In this document: positions 1,328 through 20,060 of the stretch, piece by piece
Layout of the letters: each line of letters begins with the position of its first letter
How positions within the stretch are numbered: the stretch's first letter is position 1
From: a virus
Strand: one strand, 5' to 3'
Virus record (IMG/VR): IMGVR_UViG_3300047564_006187
Coordinates: 1 to 20,060 of that record
DNA length: 20,060 nt
Program-made: the position numbers and the translations under genes
The notes under the pieces: generated by a model
Seen by the model: the letters and a program-made list of their open reading frames with translations, nothing else
What the model was told of the DNA's origin: nothing
Databases searched by the model: none

Positions 1328-2134
1328 ATGAGTAACAAATTAGATTTAACAATTATCCTACCAATCAAATCTTCTTTAGCTAAAGATTTTGATGAGTATT
1401 TTACTAAAGCAATTGAATCAATCAAAAACCAAAAAGTTCAAGTACAAGAGTTGTTGATTGTTGCAACTGTAGAAGAGCAACTAAAGTCATATTTGGAATC
1501 TTATGATTTTGGTGAATTGAATGTAAGAACTGTTGTTTGGAACAAAGAACCAAGTTACAGTACTCAAGTTAATTTTGGTGTTGAACAATCAACCACAAAA
1601 TGGGTTTCATTGTTTGAATTCGATGATGAATATGCAAATATTTGGTTTGATAACGTTCAAAAATACATCGAGTTTTTCCCTGAAGTACAAGCATTTTTGC
1701 CAGTGGTAGTGGACACAGATGAAAAAGGAATTTTTGCGGGTTTCACAAATGAAGCGGTCTTTGCGGCTAACTTCTCACAAGAAATGGGTATTTTGACAAA
1801 TGATGTTTTACAAGATTACCAAAACTTCCAAACATCAGGTATGGTCTTTCGAAAAAGTATTTACGAGGATTTTGGTGGTTTCAAATCGAGTATTAAACTT
1901 ACGTTTGTCTACGAGTTTTTACTCAGACTTACATACAATTCAGTAAACATCATGACTATCCCTCGTTTGGGATACAAACATACGAACATGAGAGAAGGCT
2001 CGGTGTTTTGGAACTATAAGTTTGGCGCAGAAAGAATGGTTGACGATGAAGTGAAGTTTTGGATACAAACAGCAAAAAAAGAATACTTTTTTAGAGACGA
2101 TAGAACCATAAATTACACCTCTGAAAATGTCTAA
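1328..2134 (+). CDS. GT-A fold glycosyltransferase (GT2-like)
   Basis: A 268-aa protein with the layout of a family-2-type glycosyltransferase. Residues 6-13 (DLTIILPI) form the first strand of the nucleotide-binding fold, and a helix follows with the AIESIKNQ pattern. VNFGVEQSTTKWVSLFEFDD (residues 81-100) corresponds to the usual N-x-G-x-x-x-[AS]-x-G-x-[YW]-[IV] run leading to the metal-binding DxD-like acids, here Asp99-Asp100-Glu101. The C-terminal part is longer than the minimal domain and contains the R-x-G-Y-x-H turn at about 213-218. The TAA stop overlaps the ATG of the sigma-factor gene by 1 base, indicating translational coupling. Its acceptor is unknown. It pairs with the GT-B gene upstream. 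Confidence 0.8.
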   Translation: MSNKLDLTIILPIKSSLAKDFDEYFTKAIESIKNQKVQVQELLIVATVEEQLKSYLESYDFGELNVRTVVWNKEPSYSTQVNFGVEQSTTKWVSLFEFDDEYANIWFDNVQKYIEFFPEVQAFLPVVVDTDEKGIFAGFTNEAVFAANFSQEMGILTNDVLQDYQNFQTSGMVFRKSIYEDFGGFKSSIKLTFVYEFLLRLTYNSVNIMTIPRLGYKHTNMREGSVFWNYKFGAERMVDDEVKFWIQTAKKEYFFRDDRTINYTSENV

Positions 2135-2880
2135 TGATTGAGACGTTAACGGCACAGACCGAAGATGTCACATCAAAAAAAAGGGGTAGAAAGGCAACTA
2201 CAACTAATTATTTCGATGTACGTGAGGAGGAGGCTGTAAGAGCTTTTCTTATAGCCGAATCCTACGAAGAAAAAAATAAAATTTACAACGAATTTTTAAG
2301 AGCCCCTTTAGATAAGATGATATCTTCGATTATTCGGAGGTACAAGTTGTACAGGAAAGATATGGATTTCAGAGAAATTCATGTGGATACCCATTCTTTC
2401 CTGATGACTAAAGTAGATAAGTTCAAACCCGCCAAAAATAAAAAGGCGTATTCATACTTTGGTACAATTTGTAAAAATTACTTGATGGGTCAAATCATCA
2501 AAGACCAAAAAGAAACTAATCGTAAAATTTCTTACGAAGATATTTCTTCAAGTCTTGAAGAGAGACCTGACCTGACATATGAAATTGATATTGACGTTGT
2601 TGAAACCGATTTATTAATCAACACATATCTTTCGGATTTAAGAGATTTTATTGCAAACGAAAATCTTTCTGAAAGTGAAAAGAAACTTGGGTATGCACTA
2701 ATTGACTTATTTGAAAATTACGATTCAATTTTTGCTGGCACTGACAACAACAAATTCAATAAAAACATTATTCTTTTGTCTTTAAGGGAAATGACAAACT
2801 TAACAACGAAAGAAATCAGAAACTCCATGAAAAAGTTCAAAAAACTTTATCTTTTAGTCCAAACCAAAATGAAAGACTAA
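2134..2880 (+). CDS. gp55-like late-transcription sigma factor
   Basis: A 248-aa protein resembling the T4 gp55 family, which replaces the host sigma on RNA polymerase and directs it to phage late promoters. Residues about 50-127 match a compact sigma region 2: a helix ending in SSIIRRYKLY, then DKFKPAKNKKAYSYFGTICK, the gp55-like version of the F-D-x-x-K-x-x-A-x-x-Y-F-x-x-x-x-N signature, then a basic helix (IIKDQKETNR). The N-terminus (residues 14-20, SKKRGRK) is a basic tail. It is about 60 aa longer than T4 gp55. Residues 211-240 (LLSLREMTNLTTKEIRNSMK plus a basic end) look like a helix-turn-helix, possibly a region-4 equivalent that T4 gp55 lacks. It is translationally coupled to the GT-A gene. 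The sigma assignment rests on motif recognition only, but I consider it likely. Confidence 0.8.
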   Translation: MIETLTAQTEDVTSKKRGRKATTTNYFDVREEEAVRAFLIAESYEEKNKIYNEFLRAPLDKMISSIIRRYKLYRKDMDFREIHVDTHSFLMTKVDKFKPAKNKKAYSYFGTICKNYLMGQIIKDQKETNRKISYEDISSSLEERPDLTYEIDIDVVETDLLINTYLSDLRDFIANENLSESEKKLGYALIDLFENYDSIFAGTDNNKFNKNIILLSLREMTNLTTKEIRNSMKKFKKLYLLVQTKMKD

Positions 2881-3286: not shown

Positions 3287-3287
3287 A

Positions 3288-5432: not shown

Positions 5433-5433
5433 T

Positions 5434-5646
5434 ATGACACAAGAAGAATTTAAAGTAATACAGGAAAACGCCGTCAATGTAGACAAGATACCAAACTCCA
5501 AACTTGAGGAAAGTATGGATAAACTTTCTAAAGAGTTTGAAGAAATCAAAAACTCAATCATTGGGATGAGTTTTTATTTGGATAAAATTGAGGAACTCTA
5601 CAATAGGATATTAAAAGAATATCAAAATCGTAATGGCAGAACGTAA
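5434..5646 (+). CDS. 70-aa coiled-coil protein
   Basis: A small acidic protein whose residues 17-62 form a heptad-like coiled coil (LEESMDKLSKEFEEIKNSII). The start chosen is ATG 5434, 1 base after the previous stop. The frame is open further upstream to a TTG at 5392, but that would place 14 codons inside the end of the 714-aa gene. Its last 14 bases overlap the gp5-like gene (5633-5646), so the two are translationally coupled. It may be a chaperone or assembly partner of the flanking tail proteins. No family recognised. Confidence 0.75.
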   Translation: MTQEEFKVIQENAVNVDKIPNSKLEESMDKLSKEFEEIKNSIIGMSFYLDKIEELYNRILKEYQNRNGRT

Positions 5647-7141: not shown

Positions 7142-7148
7142 TATTTAT
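7142..7148 (+). promoter_or_regulatory. TATTTAT box, candidate late promoter
   Basis: TATTTAT begins directly after the TGA stop of the gp5-like gene and reads toward the 503-aa structural gene, whose ATG is 15 bases after the box. A weak ATTAG/CTAAT hairpin with an all-A loop (7147-7161) follows. The flanks match those of the box at 2907 (ATTTATTAG). Confidence 0.5.
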
Positions 7149-7163
7149 TAGAAAAACTAATTG

Positions 7164-8675
7164 ATGTCAATTTTAAGGTCGTATTTTAGTCGTAACGATA
7201 CACTACTTTCAAACACCTATACAAACACGGGTAGAAACCCTGTAGTAGAGTTAAATTTTGGTTCAGCCGACTTGGTTGTACCCAACTTTGGTTTTACTCG
7301 ATTTATCTTTGATTTAGACTTAGACCTTCTTCAAGAAAAACTTGCCACAGGGGAAATCTCAACAGGTTGTACCTCAGCAATGACCCATACCCTAACAATG
7401 ACCAACACATCATCATTTGACGATGATTTGCTCAATACCAATATGTCAAACGGAAGAAAAAGAGCAACGTCATTCGATTTGATTCTTTTTAGAATACCTA
7501 AGTTTTCAGGTAGCACAGGACTCCCCCAACTATGGGACGAAGGTGTGGGGTATGACTATACTCAAGCTCTAACAAGAAATGGAATTTCAGGTTCAATCAC
7601 CGCAATTCAACAGAACAACGACATTATGTTCTCGACAAGACCCGCCAACTGGTATCAGAGAACTACCGTAAACAATTGGTCCCAACCTGGTCTGTACGAC
7701 AACTCCAATGGTCTTACAGGTTTGACAGGACTCAATTATTCAGCCATCACAATAGTTGATGAACAACACTTTGAGTTTGGTAATGAAGATGTCAACTTCG
7801 ATATGACCAACGAAATCAATTCGATACTTGATGGTTCATTAACAGGTGTCACAGGATGGGGGATTGCCTACAAACCAGACCTCGAGAGACTAACAGGACT
7901 CACAGAGTCTTATAGTGTTGGTTTCTTTGGAAGGTTGACTCAAACTTTCTACCAACCATTCCTACAGACAACATACAACGACCTTATTCGAGATGACAGA
8001 AATCTGTTCTTGAAAAACCAAACAAATAAATTGTATTTGTACATTTATCAGAATGGTGATTTCAAAAACTTGGATGAACTTCCTGTTGTTGATGTATTAG
8101 ACCAAGCAGGTGACCCTGTCGTGGGGGCACAAGGACTTACGGCATGTACTGTGACTAAAGGTGTTTATGAAGTTACAATCCCAAATGTATTCACAGGTTC
8201 ACCAACACCATGTGTATTTTACGATAACTGGACTAACTTAAAGATTAACGGACAAAATATTCCAACAGTCGAAAATCAGTTTATTCTACAAGCCTATCAA
8301 GCAGGAATCCAAATTGGGTCTTTATCCCAAGAACCAAAAAAATATGGATTCAGTTTTTATGGCATTCTTCAAAACGAAAAAATTCTTAACACCGAAACAC
8401 GAAAGATTGGGGTTGTTGTAAAACAAGAATGGTCGGCAAGTGTTATGTTAGAAAACGTTGACGTTTATTACAGAGTTTATGTTAGAGAAGGTACTACAGA
8501 AGTTCAGGTTCAAGATTGGACGCCTGTAAATCGTACACCCAACGAATACTACTTTATCTTTGATATGAGAGATAAAATACCTAACGAATACTTTGTGGAC
8601 ATCAAAGTGGATACAAGTGGTGAAAAAGATATTTATAAAGACACATTACAATTCCAAATTGTTAACAAAAAATGA
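7164..8675 (+). CDS. 503-aa virion structural protein, tail-associated
   Basis: A beta-rich, Thr/Asn/Gly-rich protein with several T-G-L-T-G-type turns (TGLTGLNYS, LTGVTGW, LTGLTESYS). The middle segment VGFFGRLTQTFYQPFLQTTY followed by a D-D-R motif resembles a conserved structural protein that I associate with environmental T4-like phages, but I cannot confirm this without a search. The C-terminal 130 residues (from about KKYGFSFYG) look like one or two Ig-like strands-and-turns domains ending in KDTLQFQIVNKK. I chose ATG 7164; a TTG at 7161 would add one residue and has no support. The stop overlaps the next ATG (ATGA). A baseplate or tail-fibre-attachment role is inferred from position after the gp5-like gene. 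Confidence 0.75.
   Translation: MSILRSYFSRNDTLLSNTYTNTGRNPVVELNFGSADLVVPNFGFTRFIFDLDLDLLQEKLATGEISTGCTSAMTHTLTMTNTSSFDDDLLNTNMSNGRKRATSFDLILFRIPKFSGSTGLPQLWDEGVGYDYTQALTRNGISGSITAIQQNNDIMFSTRPANWYQRTTVNNWSQPGLYDNSNGLTGLTGLNYSAITIVDEQHFEFGNEDVNFDMTNEINSILDGSLTGVTGWGIAYKPDLERLTGLTESYSVGFFGRLTQTFYQPFLQTTYNDLIRDDRNLFLKNQTNKLYLYIYQNGDFKNLDELPVVDVLDQAGDPVVGAQGLTACTVTKGVYEVTIPNVFTGSPTPCVFYDNWTNLKINGQNIPTVENQFILQAYQAGIQIGSLSQEPKKYGFSFYGILQNEKILNTETRKIGVVVKQEWSASVMLENVDVYYRVYVREGTTEVQVQDWTPVNRTPNEYYFIFDMRDKIPNEYFVDIKVDTSGEKDIYKDTLQFQIVNKK
8630..8636 (+). promoter_or_regulatory. TATTTAT box inside a coding region, weak candidate
   Basis: GATATTTATAAAG near the 3' end of the 503-aa gene matches the extended motif (purine, any base, TATTTAT). 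It lies 35 bases before the ATG at 8672. Because it is in coding sequence it could be chance. It is listed because the next gene has no intergenic gap in which to place a promoter. Confidence 0.25.
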
Positions 8676-9151
8676 AAAAGGTAATCAAACTCACAGAAAC
8701 CGACTTACAAAAATTAGTCAATAAAGTTCTTAAGGAAGCGGAACATGAACATAGTCGTTATATGTTTTTCACTAATCTTCAACAAATTAAAAGACAATCA
8801 GAACTTTTATTGGAGTTGGATGATGAGGTAATCAATCAGATTTTGGAGAACGGTCACGATTGGGCTGACGACCACATTACCGTGGCAAAAGAAAACATGG
8901 ACCAGGTTTTTGATTTCTTGATGAATGAAACGCAAGATTCTGAAATGGACATGTCTATGATGGATGATGTTACTATAATAGAAGGACGTAAAAAAACAGG
9001 TACTAAGTTATGTGCTCGTGGTAAAGCCGCTGCTAAGTCGAAGTATGACGTGTTTCCTTCAGCCTATTCAAATGGTTACGCTGTCCAAGTATGTAAAGGA
9101 AGAATGCCAGGTCTCGACGGAAAAAAAAGATGTTCGGGAGTGTATTGTTAA
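8672..9151 (+). CDS. 159-aa Cys/Lys-rich protein with capsid-targeting-like N-terminus
   Basis: Three parts are visible. Residues 1-22 form a basic amphipathic helix (IKLTETDLQKLVNKVLKE from residue 5) followed by Ala23. Residues 28-90 are a helical acidic domain (MFFTNLQQIKRQ to FDFLMNE). Residues 110-159 are a basic domain with Cys114, Cys141, Cys154 and Cys159 around KYDVFPSAYSNGYAVQVCKG, plausibly a metal-binding or DNA-binding fold. L-K-E before Ala fits the T4 gp21 cleavage consensus (L/I-x-E), and T4 internal proteins carry a similar short N-terminal capsid-targeting helix. I infer an internal head protein processed by the prohead protease. The ATG overlaps the preceding stop. The family name is unknown to me. 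Confidence 0.7.
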   Translation: MKKVIKLTETDLQKLVNKVLKEAEHEHSRYMFFTNLQQIKRQSELLLELDDEVINQILENGHDWADDHITVAKENMDQVFDFLMNETQDSEMDMSMMDDVTIIEGRKKTGTKLCARGKAAAKSKYDVFPSAYSNGYAVQVCKGRMPGLDGKKRCSGVYC

Positions 9152-9152
9152 C

Positions 9153-9183
9153 TTTGTAGTTTTAATTTAGTGTTGTATATTTG
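9153..9183 (+). promoter_or_regulatory. Bacteroidota-type promoter (TTTG-N19-TATATTTG)
   Basis: TTTG at 9153-9156 (-33 element), a 19-base spacer and TATATTTG at 9176-9183 fit the Bacteroidota primary-sigma consensus TTTG / TAnnTTTG exactly. Transcription would start near 9189-9191, about 10 bases before ATG 9201. It is the only such promoter I found in an intergenic gap, and it implies transcription of the 9201-9931 pair by unmodified host polymerase early in infection. Confidence 0.75.
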
Positions 9184-9200
9184 TGGTCAAATATCAACTA

Positions 9201-9605
9201 ATGAATAACCTCTACCACAAGTTCCGTCGGTTTGTTCAAAAACAAACCATCCAAGCGTTCCGTTATGTTCAAACGGATTACGAAAAGTCGATTTACGAAA
9301 ACGACTCTATTACAATTTGTAAAAAGTTGATTAGTCAAAAAGAATCAACATTATTACTCACACCAAGAAGTGGGAAAAGATATATCAAAAGTGAAACTTC
9401 AGATGTATTTATTATTCTCGACAGTCATAGAATCAAAATTATCAATCACATCTACGCTTATGATATCTATGTTACAGATAAGCCCTGGACAAAGTTGTTA
9501 GACTACTTTGATACAGAGGTAGAAAAAAGAAGAGATGAATTTGAAAAACAAATTACCTCTAACATCCAAAGTTCACTAAAAAAGATTTTACACGAAGTCA
9601 AATGA
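9201..9605 (+). CDS. Hypothetical 134-aa protein
   Basis: The start chosen is ATG 9201. An in-frame GTG at 9183 is the last base of the -7 promoter element and cannot be in the transcript. The N-terminus is basic and aromatic (LYHKFRRFVQKQTIQAFRYV). A mixed alpha/beta middle follows with the IILDSHRIKIINH strand pair. The last 40 residues are a charged helix ending in SSLKKILHEVK, which resembles the L-x-K-[IV]-L-x-E motif at the ends of other proteins in the window. No catalytic motif was recognised. It overlaps the next gene by 4 bases (ATGA), forming a two-gene operon behind the host-type promoter. Function unknown, probably an early or middle gene. Confidence 0.7.
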   Translation: MNNLYHKFRRFVQKQTIQAFRYVQTDYEKSIYENDSITICKKLISQKESTLLLTPRSGKRYIKSETSDVFIILDSHRIKIINHIYAYDIYVTDKPWTKLLDYFDTEVEKRRDEFEKQITSNIQSSLKKILHEVK

Positions 9606-9931
9606 AACATCCTTTCCATACTTTATTTTACATTGGTCTTTCAACTATGCTCTTTGTTGGTACATTTTTGAGTCTTTTAGTTATTAACATCAAAGACATA
9701 CTTCCTTCGACATTTAGTGACAGTGAACCACGCGTTGTTAATCGAGACGTAATTGTCACAACACCTATTGAGATTTTGAGTGGACCAACACCTCAAACAA
9801 AACCTATCGAGAAAGTAATAGTGACAAAAAAAACAGAAAAAACGGTGGAATTACCAATCCAAGGGGACAGCACCAAAACATTACCCGAAAAAAAAGATTC
9901 AACGGAAACGCCTGTTATAAAGACTCCTTGA
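9602..9931 (+). CDS. Small single-pass membrane protein with Pro/Thr/Lys-rich tail
   Basis: A 109-aa protein. Residues about 7-30 (TLFYIGLSTMLFVGTFLSLL) are a hydrophobic membrane segment after a short basic N-terminus, so the N-terminus should be inside. The remaining 80 residues are Pro/Thr/Lys-rich, low in hydrophobics and probably extended in the periplasm, rather like the linker of TonB or of inner-membrane spanins. There is no Cys lipobox. Its first bases overlap the previous stop, and its last 17 bases overlap the convergent gene at 9915. It could be a spanin-like lysis protein or a superinfection-exclusion protein; the sequence does not decide. Confidence 0.65.
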   Translation: MKHPFHTLFYIGLSTMLFVGTFLSLLVINIKDILPSTFSDSEPRVVNRDVIVTTPIEILSGPTPQTKPIEKVIVTKKTEKTVELPIQGDSTKTLPEKKDSTETPVIKTP

Positions 9932-10640
9932 GTACTTTGTGGATTAAATTTCTTAATCCCTCATTTTTTTTCTTTGGTTTGTAAGACGTCATAGTTGGTT
10001 TGTTACCCTTACCAACTTTGGGGTCTTTTTTTTCCGCGGCTCTTTTTTGAGCACAAGCAGATTTTTTTTGTGCGTCAGTCATTTTTGACGCCACACCCGC
10101 GGCTCTACATTTAGGATAACCCTTAGATTCTCCTTCAGGTCTGCCACAAGGTGGATGCCCACCACCTTCTTTTTTTCTACAAATGTTTACCCAAGGACCT
10201 TTTGGTTGTTTTGACCCTTTTGGTTTTTTCTTGGTACCAAACCAAACGGCTAAATCTTCTTTTATCATAATTGGTTCGTAATCTGATTTAGGTAAATTAG
10301 CGATTTTCTTAATATACTCAGGTGTACCAGGTTGTTTAACCCCACTTGGGTCATATCCATTAATTGGATTACCGCCAGCATCATTTTGTGTAAAATTTTT
10401 TTTGGCAATTTTTGCTTTCTTCAAAGCAATTATTTCGTTTTTTGATATTTGTTTCTTATTTCTCGCCATTTGACCATCATATGAATCATAGGCGTTTTCT
10501 GTAGAAACATACTCAGACACAGGAATATCAAAAGGGGCAACAGTATGTTTGTCCCAAATGTGTGGGGCTAAATTCAAAGGTACCTTGAAACTGCCAGCAT
10601 TAACTGCTCCTGTAGATTCCTTTAAATTTTTCTTTTCCAT
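9915..10640 (-). CDS. 241-aa Lys-rich protein with Cys-rich domain and terminal L-x-E helix
   Basis: It starts with MEKKNLKESTG and ends with LRNLIHKVLKESL, so both ends carry an L-K-E-S sequence matching the prohead-protease consensus. Residues about 128-205 form a Cys/Gly/Lys-rich domain. It opens with WFG and WVNIC, then GGGHPPCGRPEG and GYPKCRAAGVASKM, and a further Cys follows in KKSACAQKRAAEKK. Spacing of the four Cys suggests a small metal-binding fold. I associate similar K-W/C-G-R/Y-P-x-C domains with large phages and algal viruses, without being able to check. The tail is strongly basic, fitting DNA binding inside the head. A TATTTAT box is located 11 bases upstream of the ATG. It is convergent with the membrane-protein gene, overlapping by 17 bases. 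Confidence 0.7.
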   Translation of the reverse strand: MEKKNLKESTGAVNAGSFKVPLNLAPHIWDKHTVAPFDIPVSEYVSTENAYDSYDGQMARNKKQISKNEIIALKKAKIAKKNFTQNDAGGNPINGYDPSGVKQPGTPEYIKKIANLPKSDYEPIMIKEDLAVWFGTKKKPKGSKQPKGPWVNICRKKEGGGHPPCGRPEGESKGYPKCRAAGVASKMTDAQKKSACAQKRAAEKKDPKVGKGNKPTMTSYKPKKKNEGLRNLIHKVLKESL

Positions 10641-11161: not shown

Positions 11162-12955
11162 TTATCTCAATTCTCTCAAGTCGAATGTTCTTACACCATC
11201 AACTGTGATACGTCCGTAGAAACGGTTGTTCACCACCTTCTTAGCGTATCTGGTCATGATACCCTTGATTGGTGTGAAGTTGAATGGGTTGTACATTGTT
11301 GGAGTGAGTTGTAGAGGTACATACGGTGCGTAGATGTAACCTGTGTCAAGTAACGATGTACCTTTGTGACCCAACAACACTTGGTTTGCTGGGAAGTAAG
11401 GGTCACGGTAAACTTGATATCTACCTGCCAAAGTACCAACTCTCTCGATACCCATGTTGTACTGGTCTTGCTCAGGAGCTGCGTTCGATACGTGGAAGTA
11501 CTCCAAGTCGTCGAAGATAGCAGATACCTCAGAAGATACAACAATCCAGTTAGCTCCACCTCTCAAGGTAGATTTGTGGATTTGTGCTGAGATTTGGTTG
11601 ATTGCCGTGATAAGGGTTTGGTTCCAATCCTTCTGAGTGTAAGGGTTTGAACCATTTCCGTTTCCAAGTCTCTTCCAACCGTTGTAATCCCATCTCAAGT
11701 TCCAAGCCGCAGCTTTTCTCAAGTCTCTAAGGATTTCACGGTCGATTTCAGCCGCTACTTGCTCCGACAACAACGCTGTCAATTCAGCTTCAGCGTCGAT
11801 GTTGTGGAACGCAGCAACGTCTTGTGCCATTTCAGGAGACCATTGTGCTCTTAATTTTCTTTCTGTTACAGATACAGTAACTGACTCGAGGTCAAAAGAA
11901 ACTTCACCTAATCTGTCTTCGAATTCCAAGTTCTTATAAATTCTATAAGTTGAGATAAACGCGGTGTTTACAAGTGAGTTTGAAGAGAACGAAGACCCTG
12001 TGTAACCATCCATAGAAGGACCACAAGTCACACAAACTGGTGTCTGAAGGTCAACTTCTAAGTAGATTTTACCGTTAGCATCACAAACCTGGTAGTAAGT
12101 ACCACCGTCAGTTTTAGAGTTAGGGAATCCTAACGTTACATCCTGACCGTACTGAACAATACCATCACCGTATCTTTGAGTAACAACTCTGAAGAGGTAA
12201 TTATTTTGAGTGTTTGCTGATGTGTAAACGTTTCCAAGAGCTCCACGAATTTCTAAACTAGCGAGGAAAGTCTCTGTATCCATTGGGTTACCATCAGGAC
12301 CAATCAACTGACCAGCACCTGCGTTCGCGAAACCTGACATAACAATGAGTACTTTTCTGTAGTTATCAAGTCCGTAACCAGTGATAATCAAGTTGTCACC
12401 AGCCCAAGCTACTGTAGTAACATCACCTGTGATAGCTGAGAACTGACCTCTTGAGTAGTCGTAAAGACCTGGTGGGTCAAGAGCTGGTTCGTTACCTTCG
12501 TAGAATCTATCGTAAAGGTCTTTAGTGTTTTGGTAGTCGTAACCACTGTTTGGAGTTTGGTCATTAGCTGCGTTTGGTGCTCCGTAAGGTGCCCAGTGCT
12601 GATTTTGTGCGTTTTCGTACGACTGAATGTTAGGTACAAAGTAGAACAACTTACCGATAGGTAGGTTCATAGCTTGTACTGATACGATATCGTTAGCAAG
12701 AAGTTTAGAGAAAACTCTTCTTACGATAGGAAAAACTACAGTCTCGAAAGAACCCGAGTCAGCTGTTGAAGATGCTTCGTTGATTAAGTGTGAAGCTTGG
12801 TTTTCATACAACTGAGCTACGTTCTCCTTAAGGTGACCCTTAAGTCCATCGAGGAAACCTAATTTTTCCCATTTGTTGATTGTGTCTTCTTTGATAACTT
12901 TAAGGTGCTTAAGACCGATGTTACCAACAAGACCTGATTCAAGTAATGCTCCCAT
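11162..12955 (-). CDS. 23: Major capsid protein, T4 gp23-like
   Basis: A 597-aa HK97-fold capsid protein that forms the hexamers of the head. The C-terminus is diagnostic: YQVYRDPYFP, then TGYIYAPYVPLQL and FNFTPIKGIMTRYAKK, matching T4 gp23 DPYAN, FYAPYVALTPL and PVMGFKTRYG. RKLRAQWSPEMAQDVAAFHN followed by AEAELTALL is the conserved helix region. The N-terminal 60 residues are the propeptide: LYENQASHLINE then Ala61 aligns with the T4 maturation site (LTE-A), so cleavage after Glu60 by gp21 is expected. It is about 75 aa longer than T4 gp23, and the extra sequence lies roughly within residues 180-345, with Cys residues around VCVTCGP. Start ATG 12955 is preceded by an A-rich stretch (AATTAAAAAA). 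Codons look more C/G-rich than in neighbouring genes, as expected for high expression. No TATTTAT box; probably transcribed from the gp22 promoter. Confidence 0.95.
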   Translation of the reverse strand: MGALLESGLVGNIGLKHLKVIKEDTINKWEKLGFLDGLKGHLKENVAQLYENQASHLINEASSTADSGSFETVVFPIVRRVFSKLLANDIVSVQAMNLPIGKLFYFVPNIQSYENAQNQHWAPYGAPNAANDQTPNSGYDYQNTKDLYDRFYEGNEPALDPPGLYDYSRGQFSAITGDVTTVAWAGDNLIITGYGLDNYRKVLIVMSGFANAGAGQLIGPDGNPMDTETFLASLEIRGALGNVYTSANTQNNYLFRVVTQRYGDGIVQYGQDVTLGFPNSKTDGGTYYQVCDANGKIYLEVDLQTPVCVTCGPSMDGYTGSSFSSNSLVNTAFISTYRIYKNLEFEDRLGEVSFDLESVTVSVTERKLRAQWSPEMAQDVAAFHNIDAEAELTALLSEQVAAEIDREILRDLRKAAAWNLRWDYNGWKRLGNGNGSNPYTQKDWNQTLITAINQISAQIHKSTLRGGANWIVVSSEVSAIFDDLEYFHVSNAAPEQDQYNMGIERVGTLAGRYQVYRDPYFPANQVLLGHKGTSLLDTGYIYAPYVPLQLTPTMYNPFNFTPIKGIMTRYAKKVVNNRFYGRITVDGVRTFDLRELR

Positions 12956-12985
12956 TTTTTTAATTTTTTAAGGAATTTTATTTAT

Positions 12986-14482
12986 TTAAATTTTTGACAT
13001 CAAATCCTTAATTCTCATGAACTGAGGATTTTCGTATGTCTTAGATTCAATCAATGAAGTTGAGGAACCTGAAGTCATTTGATTGTTGAGTTTTCTTTCA
13101 ACGTTCTCATTGACGCTCTGTGTTTCGGTTTTACCCAATTCTTCTTTGATTGTCTTATAGAGAGATTTTGATTCTTTAAGATTTTCTACAGAATCAAATC
13201 TTCTTAAGATATTGATTTTTTCTTTCTTGGTAGTCGAATGTTCAGTGAACAAACGGGTTGCGTATGCCAAGTTTGAGTTAAATACAGCAACTTCATTAAG
13301 TTTCTCTCTGAATACGTTGAGTGCTTGTCTGTACTCCTCGTTTTTTTCTCTGAGAACTTTCAATTCAGCCTCTACAGATTCAACCTTCACACCATTATTA
13401 CCATATACGTAATTACGGTTGTTGGTGATTCCTTTTCTCAAACCTCTACCCTCTTTAGAGCCCATTCCATAAGTTCTAGCAGCCTCTTTCGTCTCTTCTT
13501 TTTCGTAATCTTTGTAGTGTCCTTTCTTTTCACCAGATTTCTTTTCAACACCGTCTACTTTCTTACGTTTGTATTCGTGTTTCTTAGAACCCCAGTTCTC
13601 TTCCATTTCACCTTCTTTAAATTCGAATTTAGCTTTGCCAGTTCCCATAGTTTTGGGACCCTCTTTTTTGTCTTCGTCGAAGCCCTTCTTAGGTAATGAC
13701 TTATCATACTTAAATTTGGGACTTCCTATACCAACGCCTTTTGGTTTTACAGTCATTTTAGCTTCTTCGAGATTGTATTCTTCAGAACCTTCTTCCATTT
13801 CAGAGTCGTACATTTCTTCCTCATCCATTTCCATAGATTCCTCCATATCTTCCATCTCGTCGTCGTCATCTGACATTTCGATTTCATAGACTACTTCTTC
13901 GTCCATTTCTTCTTCCATTTGTCCAGAGTTAGAATCATACAAAGCAGATAATACAGCTTCCAAGTCAGGGTCAGCCTCATCGAGTTCTTCGAACTCCATG
14001 TCACCTTCTTCTAACTCTTCGTCCATTTCTTCCGCTTCGTTCATTTTAACGATGTATTCCACATCTTCATCATTGTCCTTAATATGAACTTCGTCGTCAT
14101 CTTTAGAAACAATGATTCCGTCTTCTTCACCCATAGCTTTGAAAATTTTCAAAATTTCCTCGTCTGATGCGTCTCTTAAATCGATAGTGTCATCTGAAAA
14201 ATCCATTTCGAGTTCGTCTTCCGACTCCATGTCATCCTCAGAATCACCCATGTCAAAATCAACTTCATTTTCATCACCCATAGTATCCATAGGTAATTCC
14301 AATTCGGTATCGACTTCAATCTCATCTTCGACATCTTGTTCGGTGAGAGATTCTTTTACTAACTGACTGATTTCTTCCTTCATTGTAGAAGCAAGTATTC
14401 CTTTTGCGTTTTCGGCTATAACATCTTCAACGTTTTTCATTTGAATCAGAGCCTCTTCAACTAAATTTTTAGTTTCTTGCAT
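12986..14482 (-). CDS. 22: Prohead core scaffold, gp22-like
   Basis: A 498-aa internal scaffold that organises capsid assembly and is degraded by the prohead protease. Residues about 50-240 are extremely acidic (long Glu/Asp/Met runs), residues 245-350 are Lys/Gly-rich, and the last 120 are a long helical region (LRREKNE-like coiled coil, then YATRLFTEHSTTKKEKINIL) ending MRIKDLMSKI. Position directly before gp23, size and composition support the call. Many L/I-x-E sites (LVEEA, QLVKES, VLREK, SLIES) fit proteolysis by gp21. The acidic region differs from T4 gp22 (about 270 aa), so this one is almost twice as long. It has a TATTTAT box 22 bases upstream and lies behind two tandem terminators, so it starts its own transcript. 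Confidence 0.85.
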   Translation of the reverse strand: MQETKNLVEEALIQMKNVEDVIAENAKGILASTMKEEISQLVKESLTEQDVEDEIEVDTELELPMDTMGDENEVDFDMGDSEDDMESEDELEMDFSDDTIDLRDASDEEILKIFKAMGEEDGIIVSKDDDEVHIKDNDEDVEYIVKMNEAEEMDEELEEGDMEFEELDEADPDLEAVLSALYDSNSGQMEEEMDEEVVYEIEMSDDDDEMEDMEESMEMDEEEMYDSEMEEGSEEYNLEEAKMTVKPKGVGIGSPKFKYDKSLPKKGFDEDKKEGPKTMGTGKAKFEFKEGEMEENWGSKKHEYKRKKVDGVEKKSGEKKGHYKDYEKEETKEAARTYGMGSKEGRGLRKGITNNRNYVYGNNGVKVESVEAELKVLREKNEEYRQALNVFREKLNEVAVFNSNLAYATRLFTEHSTTKKEKINILRRFDSVENLKESKSLYKTIKEELGKTETQSVNENVERKLNNQMTSGSSTSLIESKTYENPQFMRIKDLMSKI

Positions 14483-14504
14483 AGAAAATGTTTTTATTTA
14501 CCTT

Positions 14505-14511
14505 ATAAATA
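14505..14511 (-). promoter_or_regulatory. TATTTAT box before gp22, candidate late promoter
   Basis: On the minus strand ACTATTTATAAGG lies 22 bases before the gp22 ATG and just after a terminator hairpin, the expected place for a fresh promoter serving gp22-gp23. The opposite strand reads TATAAATA, the T4 late box, but no gene follows it in that direction. Confidence 0.55.
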
Positions 14512-14522
14512 GTGTAGTAAAT

Positions 14523-14574
14523 AAAAAAGTTCATTTCTGTCACATCCAAACGGACAAAATGACAGAAATGAACT
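14523..14574 (-). terminator. Long hairpin with T-run, second of tandem terminators
   Basis: A perfect 15-bp inverted repeat (arms 14528-14542 and 14560-14574, AGTTCATTTCTGTCA) has a 17-base loop with a small TCC/GGA stem. Read on the minus strand it ends in TTTTTT. It is much longer than ordinary intrinsic terminators. It could also act as an RNase III site or protect the RNA end. Confidence 0.7.
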
Positions 14575-14576
14575 GT

Positions 14577-14603
14577 AAAAAAAAAGTGGGTCACCCCACT
14601 TTT
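14577..14603 (-). terminator. Intrinsic terminator after the DUF4494-like gene
   Basis: On the minus strand a 9-bp stem AAAAGTGGG/CCCACTTTT has a 4-base GTGA loop and continues into a run of nine T. It begins 2 bases after the TAA at 14606 and ends the gp21-side transcript. Confidence 0.85.
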
Positions 14604-14605
14604 AA

Positions 14606-14815
14606 TTAATCGATTACTTCATCAATCTTACTTTCGCTTACCGAAAAAATTCTCCACTCGTGTTGAAACCCTGTATACTTCTCAGTAACCTTAGCCTCAA
14701 CGTCAGTAACGGAATAACCCTTTACCAACTTCTCCTCTCGGATTTTTTTTATTCTACCTGAGTTTTCATCAGGCATATCGTAAACAACTTTTGCTACAAA
14801 AAATTTCTCATCCAT
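14606..14815 (-). CDS. DUF4494-like small protein
   Basis: A 69-aa protein (starts MDEKFFVAKVVYDMPDENSG). It has the strand-loop-strand-helix-strand pattern of the small DUF4494 family, common in Bacteroidota and their phages: F-x-A/C-K-V-x-Y, then KLVKGYSVTDVEAKVTEKY, then WRIFSVSESKIDEVI. The role of that family is unknown to me. It is 13 bases downstream of gp21, shares its transcript and is followed by the first of two terminators. In T4 the position between genes 21 and 22 is empty, so this is a lineage-specific insertion. The family assignment is from memory of the pattern and needs a profile search. Confidence 0.7.
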   Translation of the reverse strand: MDEKFFVAKVVYDMPDENSGRIKKIREEKLVKGYSVTDVEAKVTEKYTGFQHEWRIFSVSESKIDEVID

Positions 14816-14828
14816 AATTTTGGTTTTT

Positions 14829-15545
14829 TTATCTTGCCAAAAAATCGGATAATTTTTTCATTAAATCAACAGACTTTTCCATTCCGTGACTCTGAGCAAG
14901 TTGTTTTTTTTCTTCGTCGAGGTTTTCTTCGTATTGATTCCTGTCATCGACATTACTAAACAGATATGCTCCAGGTGTTGAAGGCGAAGATACCAAATCA
15001 AAACAAATCAATTCAAAATCATCTTGTACCTCATTCTGTTCCCCCTTCTTAGCCAAAGAACCTACACCTCTTGAGGAAACTCCCATCGTAACACCTTGTC
15101 TCATTAAGTTAGCTGCGATGTCTCCCTTTGTGGATACAATTCCCTTTTCATGAAAACCTGGTGAAGTGAGGAGTTTAAGTTTTCCCATCAAGATATTTCC
15201 ATCCCACCAAATATCAGTAATTATGTGAGACACTCTATCGAGGTCAATTAATGAAGATTCAGGGTGATTCAACTCTGAAGTTGAAAGACCTTTCTTAATA
15301 ATGTTTTTGTACTTGTCAGCTTCTCTTTTGAGAATTCTTTCAGGGTATACTCTACCATTACGATTAGGTACACCAAACTTCTGTAGAACGGCGTAGAATT
15401 CAAAAGGGTTTCTATAATCTAAATCCTTTTGTTCTTTTAAGAAATCTTCATTCAGTCTATCTTTGGGTGATACATATCCCGCATCCATTTCAATAAGAAT
15501 ACCCTTACCCGTGTCACGAGGACCCAAAATTTTCAAATCTTTCAT
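14829..15545 (-). CDS. 21: Prohead core protease, gp21-like
   Basis: A 238-aa serine protease of the T4 gp21 (S78/U9-type) family. It cleaves scaffold, capsid protein and internal proteins after L/I-x-E during head maturation. Conserved blocks are NRNGRVYPERIL (residues 61-72), the catalytic His in ELNHPESS (His94), the catalytic Ser in MGVSSRGVGS (Ser157 or Ser158), and FDLVSSPSTPGAY near residue 188. The length matches the family (T4 212 aa). The C-terminus (EKKQLAQSHGMEKSVDLMKK) is a charged helix that may be removed by self-cleavage. A TATTTAT box lies 14 bases upstream of the ATG, with a TATCTC/GAGATA hairpin directly before the start codon. Confidence 0.93.
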   Translation of the reverse strand: MKDLKILGPRDTGKGILIEMDAGYVSPKDRLNEDFLKEQKDLDYRNPFEFYAVLQKFGVPNRNGRVYPERILKREADKYKNIIKKGLSTSELNHPESSLIDLDRVSHIITDIWWDGNILMGKLKLLTSPGFHEKGIVSTKGDIAANLMRQGVTMGVSSRGVGSLAKKGEQNEVQDDFELICFDLVSSPSTPGAYLFSNVDDRNQYEENLDEEKKQLAQSHGMEKSVDLMKKLSDFLAR

Positions 15546-15559
15546 TATCTCTTTTAGAG

Positions 15560-15566
15560 ATAAATA
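15560..15566 (-). promoter_or_regulatory. TATTTAT box before gp21, candidate late promoter
   Basis: On the minus strand CTAATATTTATC lies in the 26-base gap between the 150-aa gene and gp21, 14 bases before the ATG. The TATTTATC end overlaps the first bases of a small hairpin (15546-15562). Confidence 0.5.
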
Positions 15567-15571
15567 TTAGG

Positions 15572-16024
15572 TTATAGGTTAGTTTTCTTTTTACCCGTTT
15601 CTTTAGAGTTTGAAAAAACAAAATAATCATTTTTCATAACACAATCTTTGTATACTTCTCTTAAAATTTTCTTGATTGAATCTTTTAATCTATTCCCTTT
15701 GAAATCCAATTCTTCTTTAGTGAATAAATTAATCTCCAAATTCATAAAAGAGTGTTTTTCCAATTGAATTCCACTTGTTCTCAAGTCCAAATCCACAATA
15801 AAATTTTCTTTAAATAAATTTCGGTCCAAACTCTCGTATACAGAATGTTTTACATCACGAGATAAATTACCTACCACACGAGTCCAATTTTCCGAGTCTT
15901 GGACAGGGGTTACCCACGTTTGAATGTTTATGTATAATGACTTAAGATTTTTTGAGTCAACCGTACCGTACAAAGTTTTTAATGAATCGTATTGGTTAAT
16001 CTTTACTGTTTTCCCTTTTTTCAC
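15572..16024 (-). CDS. Hypothetical 150-aa protein of the head module (GTG start)
   Basis: The only plausible start is GTG 16024 (GTGAAAAAAGGG); no ATG precedes it in frame. The protein is alpha/beta, with a central strand-rich part (SLYINIQTWVTP, IVDLDLRTSGIQL, FMNLEINLF). A basic helix KDSIKKILREVYKD at about 118-131 resembles the L-x-K-[IV]-L-x-E motif seen in other proteins of this window, followed by a basic tail. It lies between gp20/core-like genes and gp21 in the same orientation, so a prohead core or head-completion role is likely. It has no TATTTAT box; the 78-base gap upstream is shared with the divergent bS21 gene. No family recognised. Confidence 0.7.
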   Translation of the reverse strand: MKKGKTVKINQYDSLKTLYGTVDSKNLKSLYINIQTWVTPVQDSENWTRVVGNLSRDVKHSVYESLDRNLFKENFIVDLDLRTSGIQLEKHSFMNLEINLFTKEELDFKGNRLKDSIKKILREVYKDCVMKNDYFVFSNSKETGKKKTNL

Positions 16025-16090
16025 GTGGGTTAAAATATTGCTCTCCGTTTATTTTCTCTAATTATAGGAGTCTTTTTCGGATTTCCAAAA

Positions 16091-16097
16091 TATTTCT
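16091..16097 (+). promoter_or_regulatory. Variant box TATTTCT before bS21
   Basis: CCAAAATATTTCTTAAATATG closely resembles the sequence before the 2918 gene (CAAAATATTTATTAGTATG), with one substitution in the heptamer. The ATG is 5 bases after the box, again implying a transcript starting at or next to the start codon. Confidence 0.35.
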
Positions 16098-16102
16098 TAA
16101 AT

Positions 16103-16285
16103 ATGCTAGTTGTAATTGTTAACTCAAACATAGAAAAAGCTTTGAAGACTTTGAAATCCAAAGTAATCAAAACCAAACAATCTCAAATTTTGAATGGGAG
16201 AAAAGAGTTTACAAAAAAGTCAGTGGTTAGACGCAAACAAAAATTGTCTGCGATTTACAAACAGAAACTTAATTCTCTTGACTAA
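16103..16285 (+). CDS. rpsU: Phage-encoded ribosomal protein bS21
   Basis: A 60-aa basic protein with the bS21 pattern throughout. It has a short beta start (MLVVIVNSN), then IEKALKTLKSKVIKT, the family's hallmark I-x-x-A-L-K-x-x-K-x-K-x-x-K-T. It continues with RKEFTKKSVVRRKQKL, equivalent to R-x-x-F-x-K-P-S-x-x-[RK]-R, and ends AIYKQKLNS. bS21 binds the 30S platform near the 3' end of 16S rRNA. In Flavobacteriia, bS21 with bS18 and bS6 is reported to hide the anti-Shine-Dalgarno sequence; Tyr52 aligns by eye with the C-terminal Tyr of Bacteroidota bS21. Phage bS21 is known from large phages and probably exchanges into host ribosomes late in infection. The gene is alone on the plus strand inside a minus-strand head module, and its last 17 bases overlap the gene at 16269. 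The start is ATG 16103; an AGGAG at 16066-16070 is too distant to be a ribosome site. Confidence 0.85.
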   Translation: MLVVIVNSNIEKALKTLKSKVIKTKQSQILNGRKEFTKKSVVRRKQKLSAIYKQKLNSLD

Positions 16286-16976
16286 GGGACTCTTCGAGTT
16301 GTTTTAGTCTAACGTAATTAACTTGGTCGAAATTTTCTAATTGAATTTTTTCAATTGTTTCTGAAATTCTTGTTTTCATCTCAGATTCAGATTGTTCCTC
16401 ATATAAAGAATTCAATTTCGAAATTGTGGATTCTTTAAGGTTCGTATATTCTTTTTCCAAGTCATCCGACTTAGACGCCAAAATGTGGAACACTTCTTTT
16501 TTTGTTGTTTCATCTAAACTTGTCAAATAATTTTGAATAGTTTGATTAGCAATGTTTACCATCGATTTGATTGGTAAAGTGACAGATTCTTTCTTCTTTG
16601 AAGTTTCAGTCATCAAAGTTTTAAGAATATTTTTTCTCGACTCTAATCTTTCTTGGATGTTGATTTTGGTGTAATAAACCAAATTATCCAAATCTTCGTA
16701 GATATTAACCACATCACTTCCTTTCTTAGGGAGTTGGGTGGTCTTGAGAATGTGTCTAATCACTTCAATACCTTCCTCAAGGTATTCTCTCGCCTCTGAT
16801 TCTTTCAGCCCCTTAGGAGACGACAAATCATCGTACAAAGAGTAAAGTTTGGCAAAATTTTTATTTTCTAAAACGTTATGTTTGAATTCCCTTAAAGTTT
16901 GTTTAAAGGAAGTAGGCTTGTTGTATGATTCAACTAAGTTTTTTTCAATTATGGATTTTATCTGTCCGAAGGTCAT
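16269..16976 (-). CDS. Helical prohead core-like internal protein
   Basis: A 235-aa, almost fully helical, charged protein directly after the portal gene, the place held by core genes 67/68 in T4. Residues 1-17 (MTFGQIKSIIEKNLVES) look like a capsid-targeting helix: L-V-E then Ser matches the prohead-protease consensus. FKHNVLENKNFAKLYSLYDD (residues 30-49) is a segment I associate with a conserved protein at this locus in environmental T4-like phages, unverified. The remainder is coiled coil (DDLEKEYTNLKESTISKLNS). No sequence identity to T4 gp67 or gp68 is visible. A TATTTAT box lies 21 bases upstream. Its end overlaps the convergent bS21 gene by 17 bases. Confidence 0.75.
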   Translation of the reverse strand: MTFGQIKSIIEKNLVESYNKPTSFKQTLREFKHNVLENKNFAKLYSLYDDLSSPKGLKESEAREYLEEGIEVIRHILKTTQLPKKGSDVVNIYEDLDNLVYYTKINIQERLESRKNILKTLMTETSKKKESVTLPIKSMVNIANQTIQNYLTSLDETTKKEVFHILASKSDDLEKEYTNLKESTISKLNSLYEEQSESEMKTRISETIEKIQLENFDQVNYVRLKQLEESLSQEN

Positions 16977-16997
16977 TGGGGTTGTATTTTATCAACA

Positions 16998-17004
16998 ATA
17001 AATA
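16998..17004 (-). promoter_or_regulatory. TATTTAT box after gp20, candidate late promoter
   Basis: On the minus strand TATTTAT begins directly after the TAA stop of gp20 (TAATATTTATTG) and is 21 bases before the ATG of the core-like gene. Confidence 0.5.
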
Positions 17005-18867
17005 TTACGAATTCAACAACTTGTCTAATTCATCCCCAATTTCTCCTAAAGATTGTTGACCTACACCCAAATCTAAAAATTTACTACCCCACATATCGCT
17101 TTCAATCAATATGTTCATATCCCTCCTTTTTGACTCGGGAGTAATTTCGCCACCTGCGGTAGCGGCGGCAGCCTCTTCACCTGCCGGTGGAATTTCACCA
17201 CCCAAGTCAGGTCCTCCAGTTTCTCCTCCCAAATCAGATAAACCACTTGGCATACTTGGTGGTGGTACAGTTTCTTCTCCCGCAGCAGTTGCTTGGGCGG
17301 TAGTTTCACCACTACCTTTTGTCCCATAAAGTTTGTCAATAGTATCAAACAATCCTGTCTTACTAATAACAACAGGAGTCTGTTTCAATTCCTCACCAAT
17401 TGCTCTTTCGAGACGTTGTTGTAACAAGTCCAAACGAATCTCCTCATCAGAGAAATTAAAGATATGTTTTTTAGCCCAAGTAGAGGAGGTTGGCTGTATT
17501 CCATTACCAGGGTCTGAAACCATGTCACGATAAAGAAGAACTTTTTCTTTCCAAATGTCTACCTTCAACAAATCTGCCTGAGTTGATGGGTTGGTTAGAC
17601 CCAAAGTGAAGTTTGAAATTTCTTCCTCGAATCCCAACAAGAAAAGGTGAACAATAGCAATTTTGTTCAACTCTTGAATCATAGACTTTTGAATTCTATT
17701 GATGGTACGAGCGAAACGAATATCCATCAACGCCAAAGTTTTACCATCTCCTACAGTTTCTTCAAACCCAAGGAATGCCTTTGGAATACGAAGAGCGGTC
17801 ACCAACTTTTTCTGAATGTATTCAATATCAGCAATTTCCGACAAGTTCTGAGCTCCCGCCAAAGTTTCAATTGGTGAAGGTGTCGATGGGTCACGAACAG
17901 GTATGAAGTAATCTTGGTCTACCGCCATTTGGTTGAATCTCATATCTACTTGTCCTGTTTTGGAATCAACAATTTGTTGTCTCTTGAACTTGTTGGCGAC
18001 ACGGTTTACGTATGCTTCAACATCGTCATCGTTCATGTTTCCAACATAAACTTTGAAGATACGTCTTTCAGGCGCTCTTGAGGTACGATAAATCAACATC
18101 GCATCTTCCGACAATAACAATTGTTTCCAAATTCTACGTGACTTTTCCAACATGGAAGTACCATAAGGAAGTTTTCTGTCATCACCTAATAATCTGAAGT
18201 GGGCAATTTCCCATGGTTGGAATTCCATATTACGAGTTCTCCACTGAAAAGTTAGACCTTTGTTTTCTTTTGATGGTTTTACATCAGAAGTAATATTTCT
18301 TTCCATCATACCCGACTCGAATCTTTCGATTTCAATGTTCGGAAGTTGTTGACAACCGATTACCCCTTTTTCGGGGTCCAAACGTAGGTATACAAAATCG
18401 TCACCATACTTACATGTATTTCTTGTCCACATAGGTAAGTTGGTATTAATGTCCAAGTTATTATTGAACAAGTCGGCTAATACTGATTTGATTCTTTTTG
18501 ATTCAGAATAAATCTGTAGAATGAACCCATCTTCGTTTGGAGTGGTAGATTCTTCAGCGTAAATGTCTAATGCCGCTGAAATCTCAGGAGTGTACTCCAT
18601 GGACTCGTAATCGTAGTACGAAGCCAACCTGTTTGGTTCGTAGTAGATTGCTTGAGTGTAAAGATTACTCTCAACTTTAGCAAATTGGTTTGCCAAATAG
18701 ATACTCTGTTGAGCTTGTAATTTTTCCTTTTCGTAAGTGGCTTTGTCTGTAGTTCTTAGAAGTTCTTTTTTATCGAACTTGTAAGTTGGAAAATCTTGAC
18801 TCAGTAAAGCATCAGGACCGAGAGCCCTCGATAACCTTTGCCATACTGTCATATTCTTTTGGTCCAT
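17005..18867 (-). CDS. 20: Portal protein, gp20-like
   Basis: A 620-aa portal vertex protein: a dodecameric ring for DNA entry that nucleates prohead assembly and binds the terminase. Recognisable T4-like segments are LASYYDYESMEYTPEISAAL with YAEESTTPNE, then RNTCKYGDDFVYLRLDPEKG, and further on PWEIAHFRLLGDDRKLPYGT with RRIWKQLLLSEDAMLIYRTS. KLVTALRIPKAFLGFEE and MIQELNKIAIVHLFLLGFEE complete the core. About 100 aa are added relative to T4 (524 aa). Residues about 516-578 are an Ala/Gly/Pro/Glu-rich linker with a different base composition, followed by a conserved-looking 42-residue end (LIESDMWGSKFLDLG). LIE before Ser is a possible gp21 site. The start is ATG 18867. Confidence 0.93.
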   Translation of the reverse strand: MDQKNMTVWQRLSRALGPDALLSQDFPTYKFDKKELLRTTDKATYEKEKLQAQQSIYLANQFAKVESNLYTQAIYYEPNRLASYYDYESMEYTPEISAALDIYAEESTTPNEDGFILQIYSESKRIKSVLADLFNNNLDINTNLPMWTRNTCKYGDDFVYLRLDPEKGVIGCQQLPNIEIERFESGMMERNITSDVKPSKENKGLTFQWRTRNMEFQPWEIAHFRLLGDDRKLPYGTSMLEKSRRIWKQLLLSEDAMLIYRTSRAPERRIFKVYVGNMNDDDVEAYVNRVANKFKRQQIVDSKTGQVDMRFNQMAVDQDYFIPVRDPSTPSPIETLAGAQNLSEIADIEYIQKKLVTALRIPKAFLGFEETVGDGKTLALMDIRFARTINRIQKSMIQELNKIAIVHLFLLGFEEEISNFTLGLTNPSTQADLLKVDIWKEKVLLYRDMVSDPGNGIQPTSSTWAKKHIFNFSDEEIRLDLLQQRLERAIGEELKQTPVVISKTGLFDTIDKLYGTKGSGETTAQATAAGEETVPPPSMPSGLSDLGGETGGPDLGGEIPPAGEEAAAATAGGEITPESKRRDMNILIESDMWGSKFLDLGVGQQSLGEIGDELDKLLNS

Positions 18868-18899
18868 ATTAGGATAAACTTAACTTAGTGTAGTACATA

Positions 18900-18906
18900 A
18901 TAAATA
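18900..18906 (-). promoter_or_regulatory. TATTTAT box after gp17, candidate late promoter
   Basis: On the minus strand TATTTAT begins directly after the TAG stop of gp17 (TAGTATTTATTATG), 32 bases before the gp20 ATG. TACTACACTA, a 10-base string also found before gp22, lies between box and ATG. Confidence 0.5.
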
Positions 18907-20060
18907 CTAACGGATACCAAATAACCACCCGTATTTCTGATAATCCTCACGAGATACTTGTTGGTTTGGTCTACCCATTCCATTTTGATTCGGGAATTGT
19001 GGAATCATTGGATTGAAGAAATCGGACCTTTCAGTATTTTCATTTACATGGGTCGCCCATGAATTAATCATTGCTTTGGTATGGTTGGTAACCTTTACCA
19101 ACGATGGAAAAGCCGCCTCGGCAGCATAAAGAGCAATGGCGATAGACATGATACAATCATCATGATGACCTCTTTGGTGGTCAGGTCTTCCATTGATGTA
19201 AACGAATGTACCCATTTCATTAATCAAACGACTACTCCTAACTTTGAACTCATGTCGAATATTTTCTTCAAATGCGGCAATAATTTGAACTCTTTTACTA
19301 TTGAAATTAATACCAGGTATTTTGTCTTTGACTCTTGGGTCAAACTTCCACAAATTTGTCATATCCACCCCATCATAGTAGAACAACTCGTACCCGAGTT
19401 CTTGTAATTTTCTTGAAGTGGCAACACCCATTCCGCCAGTCAAATCTGTAACACAAAGTGCATTGTACATATTACCCCACTTGTAACCAATCTCCGCCAA
19501 AACATCGGGTGGTACTTTTCCAACAAATTCCAATACTTGTTCCCTACTGTCAAAATCAATGATTTCAATACATGAAAAGTCTTCAGAATCACCACGAGAA
19601 ACGTCAATTCCCATTACGTATTTGTGCCCGTTCTCAGGTTCTTTCCAAATCCAAAGTTGTCCGCCAATCAGTTTAGCTGCCGGTTCCCTAACATCATTTT
19701 TCATAATTGTCTGAACCAACTGAGAGTCAAATACGTTGTCACCTGAACCCAAAAAGTTACACTCTAATTCTTGTGCAACCTTACGTTTGTCGTACTTCAA
19801 TTTTTTTACCATACTCTCAAACCACGAAGAACATGGTTTGTATCCGTCGGCAATAAATCCTTGTAAATCCGTTAGAGTTCTTTCACGGTGATTCTCATGT
19901 GATAAATCTACAACAACATCTTTTGGATATTCTTCTTTGTTAAGAAGGTAGTGAACAATGTCATTACACTTTACCATGTAAAGGTCTTTTGTGTATCGAG
20001 GGTCACGGAACCAATACATTTCGGTAATTTTGAAATCATTCATTCCACGAAGTGCCTGGT
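18907..20060 (-). CDS. 17: Terminase large subunit, gp17-like (5' end outside window)
   Basis: The C-terminal ~383 residues of the packaging motor. The frame stays open upstream of the ATG at 20043 (codons reading QALRG), so the gene continues past the window edge. LRGMNDFKITEMYWFRDPRY is the region after the ATPase core. Next come WFESMVKKLKYDKRKVAQEL and NFLGSGDNVF, the usual linker. The RNase H-like nuclease domain has YVMGIDVSRGDSEDFS (first catalytic Asp), VTDLTGGMGVATSRKL (second acid, here Asp where T4 has Glu) and GHHDDCIMSIAIALYA (third acidic motif). Together these cut the concatemer and translocate DNA into the prohead. The next gene is directly the portal; the tail sheath and tube genes that follow gene 17 in T4 are not here. 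Confidence 0.93.
   Translation of the reverse strand, partial: QALRGMNDFKITEMYWFRDPRYTKDLYMVKCNDIVHYLLNKEEYPKDVVVDLSHENHRERTLTDLQGFIADGYKPCSSWFESMVKKLKYDKRKVAQELECNFLGSGDNVFDSQLVQTIMKNDVREPAAKLIGGQLWIWKEPENGHKYVMGIDVSRGDSEDFSCIEIIDFDSREQVLEFVGKVPPDVLAEIGYKWGNMYNALCVTDLTGGMGVATSRKLQELGYELFYYDGVDMTNLWKFDPRVKDKIPGINFNSKRVQIIAAFEENIRHEFKVRSSRLINEMGTFVYINGRPDHQRGHHDDCIMSIAIALYAAEAAFPSLVKVTNHTKAMINSWATHVNENTERSDFFNPMIPQFPNQNGMGRPNQQVSREDYQKYGWLFGIR

Follow-up and report, generated by a model that had tools for sequence, protein, structure and literature searches.

In phages of Bacteroidetes (clades a–e), the gene for ribosomal protein bS21 has been described as lying opposite to the genes for the terminase large subunit (TerL), portal, protease and major capsid protein (MCP), and its product as having an aromatic residue at the position of Tyr54 (Chen et al. 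2022, PMC9723584). That phage bS21 takes the place of the host protein late in infection and favours phage mRNAs was already proposed in that paper, which also reports high bS21 RNA along with that of structural genes. Phage replacement of host bS21 is discussed by McNutt et al. (2023, PMC9976891) as well. According to the latter paper the host gene, rpsU, of Flavobacterium johnsoniae has an extended Shine-Dalgarno (SD) sequence, is best read by ribosomes lacking bS21, and is autoregulated. Pelagibacter phage HTVC008M encodes a bS21 too, which is incorporated into 70S ribosomes of E. coli (Mizuno et al. 2019, PMC6375957). Phage and host are other than those considered here, and the likeness, by description alone, is that bS21 is phage-encoded.

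The locus analyzed here is in a 20,060-nt stretch of virus DNA (IMG/VR record IMGVR_UViG_3300047564_006187, positions 1–20,060), referred to as the window. The window shares with the Bacteroidetes phages an opposite-strand bS21 gene that is flanked by two hypothetical genes and has the TerL, portal, protease and MCP genes nearby, and its group shares with them the aromatic residue 54 and a clustering apart from host bS21 (PMC9723584). The takeover idea and the gene arrangement are already published, and the window is a further case of reported phage bS21. What is new is a bS21 gene that is without the feedback switch of the host gene (the SD) and that lies directly behind a likely late promoter. 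This was not found in the literature searched: the open-licence PubMed Central literature yielded no description of a leader or promoter of phage bS21, and in a word search of the available text of Chen et al. (2022, PMC9723584) the words promoter, leaderless and autoregulation did not occur.

The bS21 gene and its relatives

The 60-aa open reading frame listed in Table 1, whose coordinates are exact in the window's open reading frame calls, is a genuine bS21 gene. A sequence-only reading of the window had recognized a bS21 signature in it and had proposed a profile search; the signature is borne out by a significant match to Pfam Ribosomal_S21 (37 bits, cut-off 27) and by S21 proteins in the PDB. 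The equivalog model NCBIfam TIGR00030 gave 23 bits, 6 bits short of its cut-off of 28.95, and the window bS21 is therefore a divergent member. PHROG 21469 (S21) gave a weak match (E-value = 0.024). In a PDB sequence search six of the seven matches at E ≤ 1 are S21 proteins, the top ones being 9i5v (6.4e-6) and 7jil (9.3e-5); the remaining match is a MADS-box protein (0.49). The predicted structure displays helices at positions 8–33 and 39–59 (pLDDT 86, pTM 0.44), i.e. the short helical protein typical of the bS21 family. Foldseek gave no match of this model to the PDB at E ≤ 10; a two-helix protein of 60 residues is perhaps too small.

Table 1. Features of the window that are referred to in the text.
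Feature	Positions	Strand	Basis and remarks
Candidate late sigma factor (gp55-like), weak	2134..2880	+	PHROG 234 E 0.023
Major capsid protein (gp23 type)	11162..12955	-	Pfam PF07068 E 2.7e-72
Prohead protease	14829..15545	-	Pfam PF03420 E 2.6e-24
Divergent neighbour, 150 aa, GTG start in window	15572..16024	-	Opposite strand in 79/80 relatives
Promoter-like box ATATTTCT	16090..16097	+	ATATTT part 16090-16095, ending 7 nt 5′ of ATG
bS21 gene (60 aa); its Tyr52 aligns with Tyr54 of the host protein	16103..16285	+	PF01165 E 2.7e-9; 337 IMG/VR relatives; phage clade support 100/100
Convergent neighbour, 235 aa	16269..16976	-	Opposite strand in 80/80 relatives
Portal protein (T4 gp20 type)	17005..18867	-	Pfam PF07230 E 2.4e-75
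Terminase large subunit part, open at window end	18907..20058	-	PHROG 2 E 2.7e-12

With a gp23-type MCP, a gp20-type portal, an S77 protease and a terminase, the window represents part of the genome of a T4-like phage; no tRNA genes were found in it. The genes from MCP to TerL (11162–20058) are all on the minus strand, so that bS21 is opposite to the adjacent head genes, as had been noticed before; its strand is that of the main open reading frames in 1–9931. The 3′ end of the convergent neighbour shares 17 bases with bS21. The divergent neighbour shows no weighty Pfam or PHROG family match. Its protein, together with those encoded at 8672–9151, 9183–9605 and 9915–10640, has a helical-looking stretch with (L/I)xE near one end. 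These stretches are reminiscent of T4 capsid-targeting sequences and prohead-protease sites.

Eighty of the IMG/VR relatives of the window bS21 were kept for comparison. The single one in which the divergent neighbour is not seen on the opposite strand (L036) has its contig cut at that point. The portal gene is opposite to bS21 in 76 relatives, protease in 74, TerL in 62 and MCP in 43, many contigs being too short to include these genes. In the tree, 40 distinct phage bS21 sequences form a single clade with a long stem against 48 host proteins. In this tree of only 64 columns, a check that the sequence-only reading had proposed, no sister of the phage clade emerges among the hosts.

The phage bS21 is kept under purifying selection. 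NG86 dN/dS values are 0.03–0.09 within the window's own group (13 computable of 15 pairs; one pair with <4 differences was left out and one has no defined dS) and up to 0.20 in other phage groups, the values being rough because some dS exceed 1. That bS21 is a captured host gene without function, a neutral passenger or pseudogene, is extremely improbable in view of this selection, of its occurrence at the same place in 80/80 relatives, of its invariant residues, and of the bS21 expression reported for Lake Rotsee phages (Chen et al. 2022, PMC9723584).

As to the host, a search of genome contigs gave only one relative, a Chitinophagaceae MAG, which serves as an entry point to the phylum Bacteroidota. 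The Tyr54 of the window bS21 is also found in part of the Bacteroidota. The best portal matches among cultured phages are split between Microcystis phage Mel-JY01 and Flavobacterium phage immuto, each with 38% identity, so that no host can be read from the portal. The window bS21, searched by tblastn against 50,697 phage records, yielded five matches at E ≤ 0.1, all to uncultured phages of 634–735 kb; immuto is absent from these matches.

The aligned tyrosine had been pointed out in the sequence-only reading, and this alignment holds across the clade: host position 54 is Y in 38 and H in two of the 40 distinct phage proteins. The common feature with F. johnsoniae is this Tyr54 position of bS21, which touches the 16S tail (PMC9976891). 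Since the phage Tyr is aligned with host Tyr54, the earlier suggestion that the anti-SD is kept hidden is consistent with the sequence comparison. In comparison with the 32 host proteins in which residue 54 is aromatic, phage-specific residues are found at host positions 13, 18, 19, 21, 23, 24, 28, 30, 37 and 49. They are fixed or nearly so, and most of them belong to the first helix. Residues 21, 23, 25 and 28 are named by Chen et al. (2022, PMC9723584).

Shine-Dalgarno sequences of host rpsU and phage bS21

It is in its control that the phage bS21 gene differs most clearly from host rpsU. In F. johnsoniae, rpsU combines an extended SD with feedback (PMC9976891), whereas the phage bS21 gene is without an SD. 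An SD was termed strong if the SD–ASD duplex was -7 kcal/mol or stronger. Among Bacteroidota rpsU loci (90 usable of 91), 66 leaders have a strong SD (median -12.7 kcal/mol) and 24 are without one; for hosts with an aromatic residue 54, it is present in 20/32 (median -17.0 kcal/mol) and absent in 12. None of 48 distinct phage bS21 leaders has a strong SD, the strongest value being -6.4 kcal/mol. The window leader gives +1.7 kcal/mol and does not show the extended SD of the autoregulated rpsU type. Comparison of 0/48 phage leaders with 20/32 aromatic-54 host leaders gives a Fisher probability of 6e-11, uncorrected for kinship. It should be noted that the contrast in feedback need not hold for the phage's true host, as 24/90 host leaders, and 12 of the 32 with an aromatic residue 54, are without a strong SD.

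A GGAG at 16067–16070 was rejected as the SD of bS21, as it is 33 nt before the ATG and too far. On the other strand it is part of an AT-rich stretch 5′ of the divergent neighbour.

Strong SDs are rare throughout these genomes. None of 22 window genes (simple ATG-only open reading frame calls) has an SD at the -7 kcal/mol threshold, in agreement with the SD-free translation surmised earlier for this phage, and in seven related contigs 0 to 3.6% of genes have one, near the level of shuffled sequences. This would suit a simpler explanation, in which phage bS21 is a plain substitute that supplements the host protein at high demand, the choice of mRNA and host rpsU stay unaltered, and SD absence is a general phage trait; the retention of Tyr54 also agrees with it. 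On the other side are the phage-specific residues that are fixed or nearly fixed at ten host positions, mostly in the first helix, and the bS21 genes of four distant huge phages (-12.1, -2.4, 1.6 and -5.1 kcal/mol), one of which has a strong SD. The latter gene, in a 735-kb phage (LR756501.1, match at 3001), displays the SD AAAGGAGG with -12.1 kcal/mol, unlike the window's clade. A plain substitute is a possible, though rather unlikely, explanation.

The TATTTAT box as a candidate late promoter

In all 80 phage loci with a start (the window plus 79), an ATATTT sequence ends 7–10 nt before the ATG of bS21; this was seen in 0/90 host rpsU leaders. In a merged set of 119 contigs, ATATTT ends 6–10 nt 5′ of the ATG in 103. 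Of the other 16, ATATGT is found there in 12, and in four the box is at 21 nt; hence the bS21 leader in these four would be an ordinary one.

The ATATTT box of bS21 is similar to TATTTAT, a motif found in the sense strand upstream of many genes in these phages. Among upstream 7-mers TATTTAT ranks first in 8/8 phage contigs, and its count is above the highest of 100 Markov resamplings in all of them, but the window and two others (G002 and G006) are close kin and the eight are not independent cases. It is found upstream of 8/22 genes in the window (0.3 expected) and of 32/131 in G005 (1.4 expected). The sense to antisense counts are 8/2 in the window, 33/4 in G005 and 17/5 in G002. For the window MCP gene, although it is a late gene, an exact TATTTAT is missing from the 70 nt before the start, which speaks against a late promoter. 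The host-like element TAHHTTTG shows no steady strand bias in the eight phage contigs. The host control for TATTTAT comprised 25 genes at GC ≤ 0.40 (two sense, one antisense, 0.8 expected) and is too small to inform.

In a 50-kb part of the immuto genome with structural genes, TATTTAT is before 17/60 genes (1.4 expected) and antisense at nine. The genes preceded by it include terL, portal, tail sheath and tail tube, not MCP. In the other 50 kb, with replication genes, sense and antisense counts are 10 and 9 for 87 genes. As immuto (NC_055915) is a cultured phage in which no bS21 was detected, the motif appears to be wider than the bS21 phages. Tblastn with nine window proteins against the two 50-kb parts gave weak matches for two.

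TATTTAT is likely a late promoter, to judge from its sense orientation before many genes of these phages and before several structural genes of immuto. The T4 late promoter box is TATAAATA, whereas the box here is TATTTAT in the sense strand. In T4, the box is recognized by a gp55-type sigma factor together with the sliding clamp. What is common to both is a single AT-rich box with no second element found (PMC2988020 for T4); for a gp55-like sigma factor there is a candidate here with a weak match. In the record this candidate gives E = 7.6e-5, and 13/15 records have E ≤ 1e-3; tblastn with it against the two 50-kb immuto parts gave no match. The phage box also seems to be closer to the transcription start than that of T4, in the manner of the host -7 element.

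The box could instead be an A/U-rich translation element in an mRNA whose leader is of the ordinary kind and begins further upstream. It is within reach of the initiating ribosome, initiation in F. johnsoniae is tuned by upstream nucleotides, e.g. A at -3 (PMC6847099), and a TGTCAAAA stretch further upstream is conserved in one lineage group. However, TATTTAT-to-ATG distances range from 4 to 67 nt, which is too wide for such an element, with 0/110 under 4 nt (TATTTGT is at 3 nt twice), and in immuto the box is prominent before genes of the structural part and not of the replication part (10 versus 9 of 87). A translation element is therefore considered quite unlikely.

With the box read as a promoter, the transcription start can be estimated. 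In F. johnsoniae, the -7 element TAHHTTTG is followed by the transcription start at a distance of 4–5 nt; among predicted transcripts for which there is a probable promoter, 87% have leaders >10 nt (PMC6847099). Alignment of TAHHTTTG with TATTTAT, TTT to TTT, would put the phage start 3–4 nt past the box. This agrees with the minimum box-to-ATG distance of 4 nt; 28/110 boxes are at 4–6 nt (eight contigs, some near-identical). Exceptions with a 3-nt spacing are the two TATTTGT variants and one TATTTAT in immuto, where another of the 20 boxes is at 5 nt. No difference between the bS21 phages and immuto in the share of 4–6 nt boxes is claimed, immuto's 20 being too small a number beside 28/110. 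The T4 spacing of about one helical turn (PMC2988020) would place starts inside some ATGs. The predicted bS21 leader is thus about 0–5 nt, and 1–2 nt in the window. Without an SD and with the box beside the ATG, the bS21 mRNA is expected to have almost no leader and to escape the host feedback loop. Leaderless phage mRNAs are already known as such (PMC5312081).

A gene adjoining the sigma candidate (2918–3286, plus strand, 122 aa, “MPRPQ”) has TATTTAT exactly 4 nt 5′ of its ATG in 7/8 contigs. Its mRNA is a promising candidate for one that is leaderless and conserved among the phages.

On the side of the divergent neighbour, AAATAAAC is conserved 5′ of the start in 23/24 lineages compared, all but L013; examples are the window (16025–16102), L015, L040 and L055. 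Because of this conservation, a further control element, back to back with that of bS21, seems to be present in the divergent gap.

Proposed effect on the host

From what was computed here (identity, single clade, selection, synteny, SD absence and box position) we infer the following course of events, in which timing, transcription start, ribosome entry, the effect on host rpsU and any preference for phage mRNAs stay conditional. The bS21 gene is probably transcribed late, from its own box beside the ATG, and the resulting mRNA would be leaderless or nearly so and SD-free. The protein probably joins the host 30S subunit, where it would displace host bS21 or fill its absence. Its Tyr may then tuck the 16S rRNA tail away, and ribosomes would stay set for SD-less mRNAs such as the phages make. 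Having Tyr54, phage bS21 could also turn host rpsU down, as that mRNA is best read by ribosomes without bS21 and these would now be filled with the phage protein. The phage gene, being without an SD, would escape the host feedback loop. Taken together, these steps have in our judgement an even chance of being correct.

A more specific form of this proposal is tentative and, on balance, unlikely. According to it, phage bS21 would silence host rpsU by way of the host's own autoregulation, while its near-leaderless late mRNA would be blind to the loop. Host bS21 need not be destroyed, and the altered first helix may tune ribosomes to leaderless or short-leader phage mRNAs.

On the side of the host, McNutt et al. 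(PMC9976891) suggest that autoregulation would replenish host bS21 and serve as a counter-defence, and that the phage might carry a protease against host bS21. For an rpsU reporter, their view and the main proposal above would lead to opposite outcomes. The prediction here, which is testable in a laboratory strain, is that phage bS21 would repress an rpsU reporter and spare one with the phage bS21 leader. The contrast between host and phage control makes the general takeover idea a testable prediction.
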